A stretch of 64,000 nt of DNA from a methanotrophic endosymbiont of Bathymodiolus puteoserpentis (Logatchev). Lineage in GTDB: Bacteria > Pseudomonadota > Gammaproteobacteria > Methylococcales > Methylomonadaceae. Both the position numbers and the translations under genes were made by a program. The stretch lies in contig NZ_FQTQ01000197.1 in NCBI RefSeq assembly GCF_900128525.1, positions 1-64,000 of the forward strand, given 5' to 3'. The notes below the pieces were generated by a model. That model did no database searches. It saw only the letters and a program-made list of their open reading frames with translations, and was not told the origin of the DNA. Positions 42,272-60,622 of the stretch are shown piece by piece (the first letter of the stretch is position 1; each line of letters opens with the position of its first letter).

Positions 42272-42294
42272 GCAGGCTGAAGCCGCGCCCTACA
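42272..42294. repeat. REP-like half-arm, family B
   Basis: The sequence GCAGGCTGAAGCCGCGCCCT matches the arms of the palindrome at 45779-45846. No inverted partner lies next to it. Confidence 0.5.
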
Positions 42295-42495: not shown

Positions 42496-42891
42496 ATGAA
42501 AAAAGCACTCTTGTTAACACTCTGCGTACTTGCATTTCCTGCCCTCGCAGCCGAAAAAACACAGCCCTCAGGCGCAACATGGACGGGCTCTAACCTTTCC
42601 GAAGCTACTATAAAACAAGTACAGACAGATAAATATAACTACACTGACTGCATTTACAAAGAAGCACAAAAACAGGGCTATAAAAAAATTGATGCTCGTG
42701 TCGCTACTGATGCTGTTATGAAACAATGTGAAAAAGAACTTTCTAAAATTCGCACCACGTTTATTGGTAACGGCGTACCCCCAATCATTGCTGATCGCTA
42801 CCTCAAGAAAACGCGCATAGATATGACACGAAAAATACTTAAATCATTAATCTTTGCAGAAGCAGCGCGCAAATCAGGCGCAACCCAGTAA
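42496..42891 (+). CDS. Small secreted protein, unknown function
   Basis: The protein is 131 residues from the ATG at 42496. The longer frame from 42370 adds residues before the signal peptide and is unlikely. A signal peptide (about 1-18, ending PALAA) precedes a helical, Lys-rich mature part with two cysteines (TDC and KQC) that could form a disulfide. I do not recognise the family. It lies between argA and a REP copy. Confidence 0.7.
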   Translation: MKKALLLTLCVLAFPALAAEKTQPSGATWTGSNLSEATIKQVQTDKYNYTDCIYKEAQKQGYKKIDARVATDAVMKQCEKELSKIRTTFIGNGVPPIIADRYLKKTRIDMTRKILKSLIFAEAARKSGATQ

Positions 42892-43013: not shown

Positions 43014-43712
43014 ATGAACACACAATTTAAAATAGATTTAGATCTTATACCGACCACGTTTGATGCCATTCATGTTTATTTAGCAGCGACTGTTTTTGGC
43101 CTTGCTCTTACCGTTATTATTTTATTATTTGTGCTCTTAATGAGTGCCATACGTAAAGCTAAAAAACCTGAACAAAAAGCTGTGGACAATAAAGAACAAG
43201 CTATTTCGACAAAAATACCCAAACGTGAACCTGAAGTTAAAATCGTCGAAAAAATTGTTGAGGTAGAGAAAATAGTTGAAGTTGAAAAAATAGTCCAACA
43301 ACCTGCTCCAGAACCTATCGTTTTAAAAGAAGCAACGCCCGATGCCGCGTTACAACTATTAAGTTTATTACAAACCGAAGCACGTTTTATCGATTTTATT
43401 AAAGAAGATGTCAATGCTTATAGTGACCAAGATATTGGCGCTGCTGCACGTGTTGTCCATACAGGTTGTCATAAAGTTATTAAAGAGCACTTTACTTTAA
43501 CAACAATCCGTACCGAACAAGAAGGCAGTAAAATTACTCTAAATAAAGGTTTTAATGCCTCTGAAGTGCGTTTAACTGGAAATATTGTAGGTCAAGCACC
43601 TTTTACAGGTACTCTAGTCCATAAAGGCTGGAAGGTTACTGAAGTTAAATTACCAAAATTAACTCAAGGACATAATGCCAATATTATTGCTGCAGCAGAG
43701 GTCGAACTATGA
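43014..43712 (+). CDS. DUF2760-type membrane protein linked to Hsp70 genes
   Basis: This 232-residue protein has one membrane helix (about 23-45) and a linker with a VEKIVEVEKIV repeat (about 75-95). The globular C-terminal domain (about 105-232) contains LQLLSLLQTEARFIDFIKED and AAARVVHTGCHKVIKEHF. I assign the C-terminal domain to DUF2760 from memory. Its stop overlaps the next Hsp70 gene by 4 bp (ATGA), which indicates translational coupling. Its function is unknown; it may anchor or recruit the Hsp70 at the inner membrane. Confidence 0.8.
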   Translation: MNTQFKIDLDLIPTTFDAIHVYLAATVFGLALTVIILLFVLLMSAIRKAKKPEQKAVDNKEQAISTKIPKREPEVKIVEKIVEVEKIVEVEKIVQQPAPEPIVLKEATPDAALQLLSLLQTEARFIDFIKEDVNAYSDQDIGAAARVVHTGCHKVIKEHFTLTTIRTEQEGSKITLNKGFNASEVRLTGNIVGQAPFTGTLVHKGWKVTEVKLPKLTQGHNANIIAAAEVEL

Positions 43713-45706
43713 AAGGTTTATTCAATACAGGAAATTCAGCGCAAGACACCCCATTAACTGATTCAGAAACAGAAACAATAACTGACTTTAATACGGCTCC
43801 AGAAGGTGAAACGGAGAGTACTGAAATACTCGAACCAACCGAACAAAACGCTGCGCCTGAACTTGAAAGTACTGGCACACATTATTCTATTGGGATCGAC
43901 TTAGGAACCACGCACTGCGTTTTATCTTATGTGGATATTTCTGACCTAGAAGCAGATGACAGAGAGCAAAAAGTGTTGCAGATTCCGCAGCTCACTGCTC
44001 CAGGTACAATTGAAGATAAAGCCCAATTACCCTCATTTTTATACCAAGCCCATGAAGCAGAAATAAACGCAGGCGATACAGCTTTACCTTGGACACCAAA
44101 ACCCGATTATTTAGTCGGTGAAATCGCGCGTAACTTAGGCTCAAAAACACCTATTCGTTTAGTCTCCAGTGCAAAAAGTTGGTTATGCCATGCGGGAGTT
44201 GATTGTAAATCACCTATCTTACCGACTGAAGCACCTGAAGAAGTCACTCGCGTTTCACCTTATCAAGCCAGTGTTGCCTATTTACAACATCTTTGTGATG
44301 CTTGGGATCAACAACACCCTAACACCCCGATTGCTGAACAAGAAATTACCATTACTGTACCGGCATCATTTGACCCAGCTGCCCGTGAATTAACCGCAGA
44401 GGCCGCTCGCTCTGTCGGCTTACAAAATGCAATTCTCCTAGAAGAACCACAAGCCGCTTTATACAGCTGGATTGAAAAAAGCCATGGCGATTGGCGTAAT
44501 CATGCCACTGTGGGGGATATTATTTTAGTCATTGATGTCGGTGGTGGTACAACCGATTTATCTTTAATTGCTGTGACTGAAGAAGCTGGAAATTTAAACC
44601 TAACACGTATTGCGGTAGGTGATCACATATTATTAGGCGGTGATAATATGGATCTCGCGTTAGCCTACACACTAAAAGCTAAACTTGAAAAAGAAAGCAA
44701 ACGTTTAGAACCTTGGCAAGTTCAAGCGCTCACTCATGCCTGCCGCGATGCCAAAGAAAAAATCCTCAGCGATAATGAAGCAGATAATATTCCTATCGTT
44801 GTGCCAAATCGTGGCTCCTCATTAATTGGCGGTACTTTACGTACAGAATTGACCCGCGATGAAGTTAATACTGTATTACTCCAAGGTTTTCTACCCGAAA
44901 TTTCTAGCAACGAACACCCTGTTAGCCGTGCTCGCTCAGGTTTAAGAACCACAGGTTTACCTTATGCGCAAGACGCAGGTATTACACGCCACCTGGCCGC
45001 CTTTTTAACCCGCCAACTCAATGCGGTTGATGATTTAAATGATGTTTCTCTACCAGAAAATGCTAGCTTCATTCACCCCTCAGCCGTATTATTTAATGGT
45101 GGGGTATTAAAAGCGACACGTTTTTCTGAGCGTTTAATGGACGTACTTAATTCTTGGTTGCGTGCTGAGCAAGCACCCGAAGCACGCTTATTAACTGGCG
45201 TAGATTTAGATTTAGCCGTCGCACGTGGTGCGGCTTATTATGGTTTTGTGCGACAAGGTAAAGGCGTACGCATTAAAGGGGGGACAGCAGCTTCTTATTA
45301 TGTTGGTGTTGAAAGTGCGATGCCAGCTGTTCCAGGTATGCCTCCTGAATTGCAAGCTTTGTGTATTGCACCCTTTGGCATGGAAGAAGGAACTGAAACC
45401 GACTTACTTGATGAAGAATTTGGTTTAGTCATTGGCGAACCTGTACGTTTCCGTTTCTTTGGCTCTAAAACACGTCGTGAAGACACGGTTGGCACACGTT
45501 TAGATTATTGGACAGACGAGGAACTCGAAGAGCTAGATGAAATTGAAATCACTTTATCAGAAGAAAATTGTAAAGCAGGTGAAATTGTTCCTGTCTATCT
45601 GCAAGCTTCAGTAACCGAAGTAGGTACATTAGAGTTACAAGCTGTTTCCAGCAAAGATGACAATCATTGGAAAATTGAATTTGATGTGCGCGCAGGTGAT
45701 GAGTAA
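43709..45706 (+). CDS. Divergent Hsp70-family protein (A)
   Basis: This 665-residue protein has an acidic, low-complexity N-terminal extension of about 57 residues before an Hsp70/actin-fold ATPase. The phosphate loop GIDLGTTH is at 62-69, the second DVGGGTTDL near 276-284, and NGGVL appears later. After about residue 490 comes a short beta-rich part, and there is no EEVD end. It is coupled to the DUF2760 gene. Both nucleotide motifs are intact, so ATP binding is likely. The substrate-binding part differs from DnaK. Confidence 0.85.
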   Translation: MKGLFNTGNSAQDTPLTDSETETITDFNTAPEGETESTEILEPTEQNAAPELESTGTHYSIGIDLGTTHCVLSYVDISDLEADDREQKVLQIPQLTAPGTIEDKAQLPSFLYQAHEAEINAGDTALPWTPKPDYLVGEIARNLGSKTPIRLVSSAKSWLCHAGVDCKSPILPTEAPEEVTRVSPYQASVAYLQHLCDAWDQQHPNTPIAEQEITITVPASFDPAARELTAEAARSVGLQNAILLEEPQAALYSWIEKSHGDWRNHATVGDIILVIDVGGGTTDLSLIAVTEEAGNLNLTRIAVGDHILLGGDNMDLALAYTLKAKLEKESKRLEPWQVQALTHACRDAKEKILSDNEADNIPIVVPNRGSSLIGGTLRTELTRDEVNTVLLQGFLPEISSNEHPVSRARSGLRTTGLPYAQDAGITRHLAAFLTRQLNAVDDLNDVSLPENASFIHPSAVLFNGGVLKATRFSERLMDVLNSWLRAEQAPEARLLTGVDLDLAVARGAAYYGFVRQGKGVRIKGGTAASYYVGVESAMPAVPGMPPELQALCIAPFGMEEGTETDLLDEEFGLVIGEPVRFRFFGSKTRREDTVGTRLDYWTDEELEELDEIEITLSEENCKAGEIVPVYLQASVTEVGTLELQAVSSKDDNHWKIEFDVRAGDE

Positions 45707-45778
45707 CTCAGCATTAAGCACGAAATAACACCAATAGATAAAGTAATAATGCTACTCTTGTAGCCAATTTATTTCTCT

Positions 45779-45846
45779 GTAGGGCGTGGCTTTAGCCTGC
45801 ATTGAACACCACTATTAAATATTAGTGAGCTAAAGCTACGCCCTAC
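45779..45846. repeat. REP-like palindrome, family B
   Basis: The arms GTAGGGCGTGGCTTTAGCC (45779-45797) and the inverse of a close variant (45827-45846) are separated by about 29 bases. Half-arms of this family occur at 42272-42294 and 49558-49580. It lies between the two Hsp70 genes. Confidence 0.75.
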
Positions 45847-45888
45847 CCGATTGAGTGTTTACAGCGTAAAAAGCAATTTTTCCTTGTC

Positions 45889-45927
45889 GGGTTAGATTTT
45901 TCTCGCTCCGCAATAAAAATCTAACCC
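45889..45927. repeat. Palindromic repeat, GGGTTAG type
   Basis: Perfect 13-bp arms, GGGTTAGATTTTT and AAAAATCTAACCC, have a 13-base loop. It lies about 27 bp upstream of the second Hsp70 start. The GTCGGGTTAG...CTAACCCACC layout resembles a repeat that is common in gammaproteobacteria, but it could also act as an attenuator. Confidence 0.65.
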
Positions 45928-45953
45928 ACCCCACGAACCCACCCTAAACTATC

Positions 45954-48695
45954 GTGACTAATAAATCCGCACAGTACCACATAGGCATCGACTTAGGCAC
46001 TACTCATACTGTAGTGGCTTACGCCAAAATCCAACAAAAAAATGCATCCATCCAAATTTTTGAGATAGAACAACTGGTCGCTCCTGGAGAAGTTGCTTCC
46101 CGCCCTCTCCTGCCCTCAGTACGCTATCACCCTGCTTGGGGGGAACTTTCTGATACTGATATGGCTTTTTCTCCCGCCGGTGAACAAGCGGTGCTTGGTC
46201 AAGCAGCCCGTGTCTTAAGTGCTAAAACTCAAGGTCGTTTTGTGAGTAGTGCAAAAAGCTGGTTATCTCACCCGTCCATCGATCATACGGCTCCTATTTT
46301 GCCATGGGGTAGCTCTGATGATGTAGAAAAAATATCCCCGCTGGATGCCAGTGCCAGTTATTTAAAGCATGTACGCCAAGTATGGAATCATAAATTTCCT
46401 AACGCTTTGCTTGAAAACCAGCATATCGTCATTACTGTACCCGCTTCATTTGATGAAGGTGCGCGCTCACTCACACTAGAAGCGGCACACAGCGCTGGGT
46501 TTAAAAAAATTCACCTATTGGAAGAGCCACAAGCCGTTTGTTATGACTGGTTACGCCGCCACCAGGATCAACTTAAAACCACCTTAGATGATATAAAACT
46601 ATTACTCGTATGTGATGTGGGTGGCGGTACGACCGATTTAACCTTAATCAAAATCGAAGCCACCGAAACTGAACCGAAATTGTCACGCATAGGCGTAGGT
46701 GATCATTTAATGCTTGGCGGTGATAATATCGACCTTGCCTTAGCGCATTTAGCCGAGTCACGACTTAATACCGATAACAAAAAACTCTCGGCAGCCAATT
46801 TATCGCATTTATTAGAACAATGTCGTATAGCGAAAGAACGCTTATTAGCCGAAGATGCTCCCGAACAACTTAATGTCACGTTATTAGGTGGCGGCTCTAA
46901 GTTAATTGGCGGTACACGCTCAGTTAGTTTAACGCGCGAAGAAGTGAAAAAGATTGCCTTAGATGGCTTCTTTCCTTTATCTAAACTTAGCGAATTACCT
47001 GATAAAAAACGCAGTGGCGTGGTTGAGTTTGGCCTGCCCTACGCAGCAGAACCCGCCATCAGTAAACATATTGCCGCATTTTTAAACACCCATCGCCACG
47101 CAGCACAAGAAGCGCTAGGAAATGACACGATTGTCCCCGATGCCCTGCTATTAAATGGTGGCGTATTTCGCAGTCAACCGATTAGGCAACGTACTCAAGC
47201 CTTAATCAGTTCGTGGCGTAATAAAGCCCCCGTCTTATTGAAAAATGAGCATCCTGAACTTTCAGTGGCTTACGGTGCAGTAAGTTATGGTATCGCTCGC
47301 GAACAGAAGAAAATTAAAATTGGCGGCGGTGCTTCACGTAGTTACTTTTTATTAGTGGGTACAGAAAAAGAACAACAAGGCATCTGCATTCTACCGCGAG
47401 GCAGCGAAGAAGGAAATGAGATTATCTTAAAAGAGCGCCAATTTTCTTTGCGCTTAGGTCAACCCGTCAGCTTTCACCTTACTTCATTAACCGGCGGTGA
47501 TCAATATAAAGCAGGGGAACTCGTTAACATTAGCGATGACTTTCACCCACTACCACCTTTAGCCGTCGCTTTTGACCACGATAATAGCAATGCACAAACT
47601 GAAGTCACGGTACAATTATCCGTCACTTTATCTGCAGTCGGTACTTTACAAATTCAATGTGTTTCAGTTGCCGAACCAGATCAACGCTGGGACGTACAAT
47701 TTCAAATCAGAAAGAAAACAACTCAGCTTACCTCTAATGAACTACCGGAAAAATTTCCGCAGGCCGTAGCACAAATTGAAGCCATTTTCGGTTCTAAATC
47801 TAAAGACATTAACCCTAAAGCAGTAAAAAGTTTACGCGCTGATTTAGAAAAATTATTAGGCTTGCGCAGCGCATGGTCCAGTCATTTATTACGTGAATTA
47901 TTTACGGTATTACTAGAAGTACGCAAGAACCATCGCCGTTCGGCTAACCATGAGCGTGTATGGCTGAGTTTAATCGGTTATTGTTTACGCCCTGGTTTTG
48001 GATATCAATTGGATAATTGGCGTGTTGAACAGCTATGGAAAACCTATCAACATAATATTCAATTTGTTAATGAAACCCAAAACTGGACTGAATGGTGGAT
48101 TTTATGGCGGCGTATTTCTGGTGGCTTAGATACCGAAGCTCAAGAACTAATTTTTAACGATTTAGCTAAATACCTAAACCCAGCATCTGCACGCCAAGGT
48201 AATACCGCAAAAATTGGCAAACAACGGGGTTATGATGATATGGTGCGCTTGGCAGCAGTATTAGAGCGCTTACCTATTGCCCAAAAAACACAGTTAGGTG
48301 AATGGCTATTAAAACGCCTAGAAAAGGCCAGCGAGCCAGCCCATACCTGGTGGGCAGTGGGTCGTATCGGTGCGCGTGTGCCCTTTCATGCTAGCGCACA
48401 TTTCGTAGTTCCCCCTGAAACGGCAACACTTTGGCTGGAAAAGATCCTTAAAGCCGATTGGAAAAAAATCCCACAAGCCGGTTTTGCTGCGACCTTAATG
48501 AGTCGCATGAGCGGTGATCGAGCACGTGATATTGATGAGACACTGCGCAGTCGAGTTATCGCTCAATTAACAGTGACCAAAGCACCTAACTCATGGCTAG
48601 AAATGGTTGAATCAACCAAAGAACTAAACGCCTCTGAAGAACAGCAAATATTCGGTGAAGCATTGCCGCCTGGTTTGACTTTGATTAATCGCTAA
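45954..48695 (+). CDS. Divergent Hsp70-family protein (B) with large C-terminal helical extension
   Basis: This 913-residue protein begins with GTG. It has an Hsp70 ATPase with GIDLGTTHT near residues 10-18, DVGGGTTDL near 221-229 and LLNGGVF. A DUF3731-like helical region occupies about 596-913. It shares the SSAKSWL segment and overall order with protein A, so the two are paralogues. Protein A lacks the extension, which is a likely partner- or substrate-binding part. No DnaJ or GrpE gene is near. The DUF3731 assignment is from memory. Confidence 0.85.
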   Translation: MTNKSAQYHIGIDLGTTHTVVAYAKIQQKNASIQIFEIEQLVAPGEVASRPLLPSVRYHPAWGELSDTDMAFSPAGEQAVLGQAARVLSAKTQGRFVSSAKSWLSHPSIDHTAPILPWGSSDDVEKISPLDASASYLKHVRQVWNHKFPNALLENQHIVITVPASFDEGARSLTLEAAHSAGFKKIHLLEEPQAVCYDWLRRHQDQLKTTLDDIKLLLVCDVGGGTTDLTLIKIEATETEPKLSRIGVGDHLMLGGDNIDLALAHLAESRLNTDNKKLSAANLSHLLEQCRIAKERLLAEDAPEQLNVTLLGGGSKLIGGTRSVSLTREEVKKIALDGFFPLSKLSELPDKKRSGVVEFGLPYAAEPAISKHIAAFLNTHRHAAQEALGNDTIVPDALLLNGGVFRSQPIRQRTQALISSWRNKAPVLLKNEHPELSVAYGAVSYGIAREQKKIKIGGGASRSYFLLVGTEKEQQGICILPRGSEEGNEIILKERQFSLRLGQPVSFHLTSLTGGDQYKAGELVNISDDFHPLPPLAVAFDHDNSNAQTEVTVQLSVTLSAVGTLQIQCVSVAEPDQRWDVQFQIRKKTTQLTSNELPEKFPQAVAQIEAIFGSKSKDINPKAVKSLRADLEKLLGLRSAWSSHLLRELFTVLLEVRKNHRRSANHERVWLSLIGYCLRPGFGYQLDNWRVEQLWKTYQHNIQFVNETQNWTEWWILWRRISGGLDTEAQELIFNDLAKYLNPASARQGNTAKIGKQRGYDDMVRLAAVLERLPIAQKTQLGEWLLKRLEKASEPAHTWWAVGRIGARVPFHASAHFVVPPETATLWLEKILKADWKKIPQAGFAATLMSRMSGDRARDIDETLRSRVIAQLTVTKAPNSWLEMVESTKELNASEEQQIFGEALPPGLTLINR

Positions 48696-48717
48696 TATTA
48701 GAAGGAGAATGCTTGAT

Positions 48718-49131
48718 ATGAAAAACCCCACATTGTATATAGTTTGGAACAATAAAACTAATATAGGTGTTCCCATTATTGATGAGCAACATAGAGGAAT
48801 CATTGCTACCCTAAATTCGTTACATTATTTTATTCAACAAGGACGTGGACTTGAAGCTTTACAGCCAACCTTACAGATAATGAGTAAATATATTGGGTTT
48901 CATTTAAAAACTGAAGAAATGATTTTAGGTGAATGCAATTATCCTCATGCCGATGAGAATTTGGCAAGACAGAAAAAAATATTTAATGATTTTAACAAGG
49001 TTGCGAGAAATGCCACTGCTTCTAAAGATCCAGAATTATTGCTGAGATTTATTAAAAATTGGTGGCTAAGCCATATTAACGAAGAGCATAAAGCATATAG
49101 TCAGTATCTAAAAGGCGACTTTACTCAATAA
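48718..49131 (+). CDS. Hemerythrin-fold protein with degenerate metal site
   Basis: The protein is 137 residues from the ATG at 48718; I prefer this over the ATG at 48709, which lies too close to the AAGGAG ribosome-binding site. Numbering from the 48709 ATG, hemerythrin ligands His28, His65, Glu69 and His122 are present. The positions that normally hold two His and one Asp appear to be Asn84, Gln88 and His127. The four-helix pattern (DEQHRG, FHLKTEE, NYPHADEN, WWLSHINEEH) is clear. It follows Hsp70 B by 22 bp. It may still bind metal, but O2 binding of the standard type is doubtful. Confidence 0.85.
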   Translation: MKNPTLYIVWNNKTNIGVPIIDEQHRGIIATLNSLHYFIQQGRGLEALQPTLQIMSKYIGFHLKTEEMILGECNYPHADENLARQKKIFNDFNKVARNATASKDPELLLRFIKNWWLSHINEEHKAYSQYLKGDFTQ

Positions 49132-58207: not shown

Positions 58208-59272
58208 TTACAACCGATTCCGGCGCTGCGCATAAGCTAATAATTTCTGTGAATACTCAAAAATCCTATGATCATTCGCGCCCGCCTTTCCGAGCGTATT
58301 AACCCAACGCGGTACTACGACACTCATCCGCCAAAAAAAATCAGGGCTCTGCTTAACTTTCAAGCCTTTATATAAAACCCCTTGATCATCGGCAACATTG
58401 GGAGCAGCAGATAAAAAAACTAAGGTTCCATAATGCGTATATCCAACGACATGCTTTCTTAGCCATTCGGAAAGCCATCGAGTACCATTAAATGGTATAA
58501 GACGGATTAAATTTAATACTATCGTAATGCTATACCCTAAAGGTACTCTAGGTACAATATCGGCAGCATTAACAATACGATATACAGGGGTTTTAATCTT
58601 TGCATAAAACTCATCATCAGCCACTCTAGGGCAACCATAAGTATAAGTTGCCCCAACACTATCCGATTCTAAATACCGAGTTGCAACCATTGCAAGCGCC
58701 CCACCTAATGAATGCCCAGTAATATAAACAGGCAAACCACTATCATCTTTTTGTAAAAATGTAGAAATCTGCTGTGCCACTAAATTATAGGCCTCTAAAA
58801 AACCCTTATGAACTTGCCCACCTTGAGGCGCAGGAATTAAATCCATCTTTACATCAGTATGCACATCTTTAATTGAAGGTTGTGTGCCCCGAAATGCCAA
58901 GATTAACATGCCATCAAAATTATCTTTAGAACTTAATTTAGCCAAAAATGCTTCTGTTCCGCCCTCTGAATAACACTCTAATAATTCAAAGTTAGCTTTA
59001 TGCAGTGCTTGCTCTATACCCTGCACTGAACTCGCACTGTCTTTTTGAAGCGCCTTTTTAATTAGTGCCTGTACGGTATCTTTGGATTCCCCGCTTTTAA
59101 CTGAAGCTGTAATCTCTGCAAATAAATCTTCAATTTTTTGTTCGCACGGCAAAGTGTCATAAACCAATCTCGATAACTCAGCCATTATCCAAGCAGTTCG
59201 ATCAGAATAAGCCGCCCTTTTAATGGGAGGAGCTTTAACAAGTGTACTATCGGAAAAATATTCATTTGACAT
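58208..59272 (-). CDS. Class 3 lipase-like alpha/beta hydrolase
   Basis: The protein is 354 residues from the ATG at 59272, preferred over the frame start at 59287 because AGAGG lies just upstream. Numbered from the longer start, the nucleophile Ser193 is in GHSLGG, with likely Asp243 and His285 completing the triad. The AFRGT oxyanion segment precedes. No signal peptide or lipobox is visible. Lipase_3 enzymes act on acylglycerols or phospholipids; the substrate here is unknown. It is the last gene of a minus-strand group. Confidence 0.88.
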   Translation of the reverse strand: MSNEYFSDSTLVKAPPIKRAAYSDRTAWIMAELSRLVYDTLPCEQKIEDLFAEITASVKSGESKDTVQALIKKALQKDSASSVQGIEQALHKANFELLECYSEGGTEAFLAKLSSKDNFDGMLILAFRGTQPSIKDVHTDVKMDLIPAPQGGQVHKGFLEAYNLVAQQISTFLQKDDSGLPVYITGHSLGGALAMVATRYLESDSVGATYTYGCPRVADDEFYAKIKTPVYRIVNAADIVPRVPLGYSITIVLNLIRLIPFNGTRWLSEWLRKHVVGYTHYGTLVFLSAAPNVADDQGVLYKGLKVKQSPDFFWRMSVVVPRWVNTLGKAGANDHRIFEYSQKLLAYAQRRNRL

Positions 59273-59383
59273 AATTAACCTCTTCACTATTTTATTTTCT
59301 TAAAAAACCTACCAAAAAATACATACTTTATAAGGTTAAATACCTACGCTCTTATCTGGCAGGATTAGGTTTTTAACATAGAC

Positions 59384-60622
59384 TTAGGCAACCCGTTTTA
59401 TCGTTACGTTTAACCGTCCTTTATTATTGCCATATTTTGCCAATAAATCATTAGCAAAAGCATATAGTTCGGCATCTCTAGCTGTAATATATTGATTATT
59501 TTCGCCTCCCTTGCCAATGCGAAAATAATCTTCGTTATCATCTAAAGAGCCGCATAACTCGAACCAATTAGCCTCAGGGAGTCGCCTATTACCTTCAAAA
59601 TATTTAACGACGGCTTCTTTATACCAAGGTAACTCATCAGAGGTCCAACCGCTGGCATTACACTTAATGCTATCATCTAACCAAAACTGGTCATCGGCAA
59701 TATCAAACTGATAAGTCTGATGTTTTTTCAACAGCACACCAGACCAGCTATAAAAATCTTCGGCATATACAATAAAATCAAATGAGCTTCCCACATCAAC
59801 AAGTTCTTTTGCTACTGCGCTTGAATGAAACTTATCCGTTGATTTAACTATTCGTTGCGCGTCACGTTGTATATCTAAGTTATTACGTATCCTTGCAAGC
59901 GGATTGGTTTGAATTTTTATTCTTTCTACTTCTTCAAGATTAATAGCTAAGCCACTATCTATTGCTTTTTCCAGTAACCACTGCAAAGCAATATTAGAGC
60001 GTAAAGGATTATTGTTCCCTCCTCCTATATCACTATGCACCCCCTTAAACCATAACTCTTCAAAATGAGTTAATTCACTTTGTGCAACAGGTCGAGTCAC
60101 ATTGAATGCTTCTCTACGCTCATTAAACGCCATTGCATGGTAAAAGTTTTTTACTGTCGCTGGAATTTCGTCAATATTCCAATTTAGATTGATTTCCTGA
60201 AAATTAATAACCGCGTTAATAGGAATGCCAAAAGAACCGACTATGTCCCAAACCCCAAGAAAGCGAATTTCAGGCCTGACCATAGTTCCATCATCCAGTT
60301 TCACACCATGATGCGCCAGTATATTTGAAAAATGTACAGCTAATGCCGCACCGCGACTAAAACCTATAATATCGATTGTATGATCACCCTTTCGCCAGTT
60401 CTCCTTTAATTCATCATACATTTCATGAACTCTCGAACGTCCACCTGAGCCGAATAGCCCCCCTAAAACCTGCCCTAACACACCAAAGCGAGTACCTACA
60501 CCTTCAACATATTCAACAGCAGTTGATTGCTTTTTATAAATCTCAGCAAACCTAACAACATTCGTAGTGTCTTCTAATTGTTCATTTTCATTCCATGTTC
60601 CATCAAATGCATATAAAGCCAT
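59384..60622 (-). CDS. DUF2235 alpha/beta hydrolase (Tle1-like)
   Basis: The 412-residue protein begins MALYAFDGTWNE, the family's N-terminal FDGTWN motif. The nucleophile Ser89 lies in GFSRGAA, and HSDIGGG follows later. DUF2235 proteins include Tle1 phospholipase effectors of type VI secretion, but no VgrG, PAAR or immunity gene is in view. No signal peptide is visible. It lies 112 bp upstream of the lipase gene on the same strand. Confidence 0.87.
   Translation of the reverse strand: MALYAFDGTWNENEQLEDTTNVVRFAEIYKKQSTAVEYVEGVGTRFGVLGQVLGGLFGSGGRSRVHEMYDELKENWRKGDHTIDIIGFSRGAALAVHFSNILAHHGVKLDDGTMVRPEIRFLGVWDIVGSFGIPINAVINFQEINLNWNIDEIPATVKNFYHAMAFNERREAFNVTRPVAQSELTHFEELWFKGVHSDIGGGNNNPLRSNIALQWLLEKAIDSGLAINLEEVERIKIQTNPLARIRNNLDIQRDAQRIVKSTDKFHSSAVAKELVDVGSSFDFIVYAEDFYSWSGVLLKKHQTYQFDIADDQFWLDDSIKCNASGWTSDELPWYKEAVVKYFEGNRRLPEANWFELCGSLDDNEDYFRIGKGGENNQYITARDAELYAFANDLLAKYGNNKGRLNVTIKRVA

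Follow-up and report, generated by a model that had tools for sequence, protein, structure and literature searches.

A DUF2760 protein and two divergent Hsp70 paralogues as a conserved gene module and candidate chaperone system of methanotrophs and other bacteria

The genome of a methanotrophic endosymbiont of Bathymodiolus puteoserpentis carries a gene for a DUF2760 protein (D) followed by genes for two divergent Hsp70-like proteins, A and B. The three genes constitute one conserved and co-inherited module rather than a chance neighbourhood. Their products may together form a chaperone system. Such gene sets occur in many Proteobacteria. The individual parts are members of known superfamilies, and both domains of unknown function, DUF2760 in D and DUF3731 in B, already have names in Pfam.

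The window, the whole stretch of DNA that was analysed, comprises 64,000 nucleotides of contig NZ_FQTQ01000197.1, and all genes of the cluster lie on its forward strand. The first, S (42496-42891), is specific to Methylococcales and encodes 131 amino acids that include a signal peptide and a pair of invariant cysteines. D (43014-43712, 232 amino acids) belongs to the DUF2760 family (PF10816, E 2.4e-55), its profile score being 186 bits against a Pfam gathering score of 25. A (43709-45706, 665 amino acids) is an Hsp70-like ATPase composed of an NBD and an SBD-beta (PF00012, HSP70, E 8.4e-19). B (45954-48695, 913 amino acids) begins with a GTG start codon and combines HSP70 (PF00012) with DUF3731 (PF12531, 'DNA-K related protein', E 4.8e-106), a family of which it is a member with 355 bits against a gathering score of 25. 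As the preliminary description had reported, D and A overlap by 4 bp (ATGA) and the larger Hsp70 follows, here after a gap of 247 bp. This gap contains an imperfect, REP-like inverted repeat (45779-45846, assigned to no strand). Its 19-bp arms, at 45779-45797 and 45828-45846, are two of three copies of the sequence GTAGGGCGTGGCTTTAGCC; the third is found at 42275-42293, and none is expected by chance. The repeat is likely a dispersed element outside the module.

No J-domain or GrpE gene is present among the scanned neighbours of D-A-B, in agreement with the preliminary description, which had also stated that no client gene is near and thereby overlooked the secreted S directly upstream of D. 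A bacteriohemerythrin gene (48709-49131) starts 13 bp after B. It was considered as a cluster member and dropped, being absent at this place in the closest relative, and is probably unrelated because it is not kept there. Scans for sigma-70 promoters and terminators gave no more matches than were found in shuffled sequences. A heat-shock (sigma-32) promoter upstream of S was likewise rejected: 10 of 12 matches are reached by 17% of loci and by 3% of shuffled sequences, and heat-shock control is not claimed because the locus described here reaches only 8 of 12. Elsewhere in the window, a T6SS Tle1-like phospholipase catalytic domain (59384-60622) adjoins a class 3 lipase gene (58208-59287).

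The preliminary description had proposed that co-occurrence and gene order be checked across genomes, and both proved to be conserved. In a phylum-wide sample of 398 genomes, 28 have DUF2760; 27 of these, and no other genome, have DUF3731 as well (Fisher p ~5e-41, a value computed over genomes made non-independent by kinship). In the single DUF2760 genome that has no DUF3731, the locus ends at the end of a contig. A second phylum-wide search, centred on another genome (G030), covered mostly the same genomes as the first. The order D-A-B on a single strand is found in all 68 complete loci, with an overlap of usually 1 or 4 bp between D and A. Flanking genes differ between loci and are common only to close relatives; conserved genes outside the cluster were ruled out as members, their synteny being limited to the genus level. 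The distance matrices of A, B and D correlate with one another (Spearman 0.83-0.94), a correlation in which co-evolution and shared species history are combined. At least 571 relatives of DUF2760 were detected in 84,980 scanned species genomes, and carriers of the module besides methanotrophs include Photobacterium/Vibrio, Massilia/Duganella and Burkholderia, among others. In one lineage A and B are 2.9 kb apart, with a porin-like gene between them on the opposite strand (L042, 8054-10972).

The order to which this genome belongs, Methylococcales, provides the strongest evidence of co-inheritance. Among its 121 genomes, S is present in 98, D in 97 and B in 99, and the three occur together in 95; one family (f94) has none of them. 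Every one of the 97 genomes with D also has B. The position of B is variable: it adjoins A in 44 genomes, lies on other contigs in 35, and in 18 shares the contig at a distance exceeding 30 kb, the maximum being 3.6 Mb. When unlinked, B stands alone among varied neighbours. Since B is often far from D-A and yet always accompanies D, linkage does not explain the co-occurrence. That the genes are retained and lost together even when far apart makes a chaperone machine without the usual J-protein probable.

The module is also carried by some plasmids, one of them conjugative, with a D-A-B copy in Bradyrhizobium. The Thiodictyon plasmid pTs485 has a D-A pair (L172, 9746-12264) with no B nearby, and the neighbours of this pair are genes annotated as anti-phage (DUF499, DUF1156, DUF3780 and PLD), with a TIR-domain gene near. 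These copies could be taken to indicate an anti-phage or mobile-element function. Such a function is very improbable, as the module is present in 34 of the 36 Methylococcales genera and does not show the patchy distribution of defence systems, D falls into no PADLOC family, A and B give only weak and partial NBD matches to a candidate model (E ~6e-7 to 2e-6), and the module is absent from phage records.

A and B are paralogues of each other, with 38% identity in this locus and a mean of 39% across relatives. Their identity to DnaK is ~20-22%. Against the NCBIfam models of DnaK and HscA they reach at best 79-87 bits, the cut-offs being at least 620, and they are also far below the cut-off for MreB. 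Two DnaK proteins and one HscA-like protein are further Hsp70s of the same genome. Both A and B contain the ATPase NBD with phosphate loops and the SBD-beta that define the Hsp70 superfamily. The equivalents of the catalytic residues T11, K70, E171, D194, T199 and D201 (DnaK numbering, plus or minus one) show no variation among 104 A and 85 B sequences, which extends to the relatives the earlier observation that the ATPase motifs of both proteins are intact. The SBD-beta of B is matched by Foldseek to those of DnaK and HscA with a probability of 1.00 (E ~1e-3); that of A is recognized via its alignment to B only.

Beyond SBD-beta the two proteins diverge, and neither has a canonical alpha-helical lid. 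A continues for a median of 2 residues after the end of SBD-beta, compared to 130 in DnaK, and it lacks a lid because the chain stops there. The acidic N-terminal extension of A noted in the preliminary description is real, comprising 60 amino acids in this genome with 13 acidic residues and 1 basic; it is, however, a lineage-specific rather than a core feature, the median length being 56 amino acids in Methylococcales and 10 elsewhere. In B, ~329 residues follow SBD-beta. The helical C-terminal region has ~310 amino acids, close to the roughly 320 first estimated, of which DUF3731 accounts for 248. The AlphaFold2 model of residues 455-913 (mean pLDDT 85) consists of a beta sandwich and an all-helical array, and Foldseek matches the array to HEAT/ARM proteins with a probability of 0.97-1.00 and weak E values. 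A PDB sequence search with a profile of the B C-terminal region returned nothing usable. Based on the weak HEAT/ARM matches and the helix pattern, B is predicted to carry an alpha-solenoid in the position of the lid.

The absence of a lid from A and the replacement of the linker would also suit an Hsp70/actin-fold nucleotide switch or scaffold, comparable to MreB-, FtsA- and Hsp70-like regulators, in which D would anchor A and B at the membrane and the SBD-beta-like domain would serve assembly and not clients. The presence of one D per pair, the vertical and near-universal inheritance in Methylococcales, and the lack of a client gene that recurs beyond this order point the same way. A pure scaffold, however, needs neither a recognizable SBD-beta nor the checked catalytic residues, all of which are kept in both A and B, and a role of this kind is considered unlikely.

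J-proteins are regarded as obligatory co-chaperones of Hsp70. In DnaK, the HPD motif of the J-domain acts on R167, Q378, the linker (the backbone of L391, and D393) and SBD-beta (PMC8215388, PMC7289447). The position of R167 is occupied in A by T, I or V in 98 of 104 sequences and by R in two, so that the arginine is lost in 102; among 85 B sequences, 45 have R there. N170 is replaced by E in all A and B, and Q378 by Y, F or H, apart from one B with S. The linker with D393, VLLLDVTP in DnaK, is replaced throughout by a basic-glycine segment of the (R/K)-I-x-G-G type. The canonical pairing of a DVTP linker with the NBD arginine is found in neither protein, B keeping the arginine in about half of its members. 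Judged by these residues, the J-domain contact site appears to be gone in A and largely gone in B. Since 45 of its 85 sequences retain the arginine, B might on its own still interact with a J-protein.

These residues also bear on the proposal that A and B are auxiliary Hsp70s of the ordinary kind, which would use the DnaJ/CbpA and GrpE of the cell with D as a mere accessory membrane receptor. The genome does encode four J-proteins, of which two are neighbours of DnaK and HscA and none is near D-A-B, and the retained arginine of B would fit such use. Replacement of the arginine, N170, Q378 and the D393 linker in A, and of the linker, N170 and Q378 in B, argues against it, and strict joint presence and absence with D is unexpected for generalists. 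This explanation is therefore thought quite improbable.

The AlphaFold2 model of D has a long N-terminal helix (residues 18-50), a disordered stretch (51-100, with the sequence VEKIVEVEK) and a domain spanning residues 109-232. Within the domain the pLDDT is mostly 93-96 as far as residue 210; it is 81-87 for the C-terminal 22 residues, which include the conserved, near-invariant C-terminus, (I/L/V)-A-x-A-E-V-E-L. The helix contains one strong TM segment with a predicted N-out, C-in orientation. The DUF2760 domain would face the cytosol, as judged from the charges flanking the TM segment (positive-inside rule). The membrane anchor ascribed to D is not universal in the family: a clear hydrophobic segment (Kyte-Doolittle threshold 1.6) is found in 79 of 108 D proteins, and about one relative in four has a weak anchor or none. 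It is strong in Methylococcales and weaker in Vibrionaceae; in Burkholderiales it is missing or replaced by a just weakly hydrophobic, amphipathic segment.

The preliminary description had further suggested that D acts as a J-protein-like tether. The idea of a dedicated non-J partner is consistent with A having lost the J-domain contacts and B most of them. The likeness to a J-protein does not hold: the HPD motif is found in none of the 108 D proteins, a Pfam scan of D returned DUF2760 alone, the domain fold has no match in the PDB (Foldseek, best E 2.0), and a PDB sequence search with the D profile gave nothing usable. D is not a J-protein, by sequence or fold.

S is a new family of secreted proteins and part of the cluster in Methylococcales. 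It is located directly upstream of D in 41 loci of this order, and was not found beside D in loci outside it. In 92 of the 95 genomes with S, D and B, S and D are on the same strand and 630-928 bp apart, measured start to start from the S match to the DUF2760 match. One Methylococcales genome (G541) has S (C6:7286-7654) without D and B, and in another (G434) S is unlinked. The invariant residues are W29, C52 and C78. S has no Pfam match, and no PDB relative was found by sequence-profile search.

The favoured reading is a D-centred, J-domain-independent pair of Hsp70s, A and B, recruited by D; confidence in it is evenly divided. A and B would be ATP-hydrolysing paralogues working as a pair, and D their obligate non-J partner, setting the ATPase cycle of both. 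The cytosolic DUF2760 domain would bind A, and perhaps B, near the interface of NBD and SBD-beta, and the N-terminus of D, if hydrophobic enough, would tether the complex to the inner membrane. The lidless A would bind and release clients rapidly. B, in which a solenoid takes the place of the lid, could be the second Hsp70 that provides nucleotide exchange or holding, as Hsp110 does for Hsp70, or could supply a client-recognising arm. In Methylococcales only, the periplasmic S may be either a client or a sensor of the periplasmic side of D. A more tentative proposal, judged less likely than not as a whole, is a J-protein-free machine of a lidless and a solenoid Hsp70 under a non-J partner, in which D, in methanotrophs, would cross the inner membrane and link the ATPase cycles to a periplasmic protein.

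Several known systems resemble parts of this arrangement. In HscC of Escherichia coli with DjlB/DjlC, too, a divergent Hsp70 serves a single set of partners and probably does so at the membrane, and its clients have been inferred in a review to be transmembrane proteins (PMC8215388). DjlB and DjlC, however, are J-proteins, whereas D has neither HPD nor a J fold; HscC keeps the helical lid that A lacks, and there is one Hsp70 in that system and two in this one. A and B share with DnaK/DnaJ/GrpE the Hsp70 NBD with all catalytic residues and the SBD-beta, and differ in their low identity, the lidless A, the replaced J-site and linker, and a cluster that has no J-protein or GrpE gene. The suggested joint action of two Hsp70 paralogues of unequal size is analogous to the eukaryotic Hsp70-Hsp110 pair, a likeness of arrangement alone; the extension of B is a predicted alpha-solenoid. 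Myxococcus xanthus MXAN_5323 (925 amino acids) is a large Hsp70 outside DnaK, HscA and HscC that is comparable to B in size; it is one of the further non-canonical Hsp70s, with no known mechanism, described in a study of Myxococcus whose consulted passages make no mention of a DUF2760 partner (PMC8265645).

The description of the module as uncharacterised agrees with the open-access literature, the body of papers searched, in which none was found that names DUF2760 or DUF3731 or deals with the module. A 2021 review recognizes three types of prokaryotic Hsp70: DnaK, HscA and HscC (PMC8215388). If the proposed J-free machine is real, it would add further types to these. It would also offer a test case for an Hsp70 cycle driven otherwise than by a J-protein, and for the holding of clients by a lidless Hsp70. 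The module is present in most of the sampled genera of gammaproteobacterial methanotrophs, and is therefore open to direct testing.
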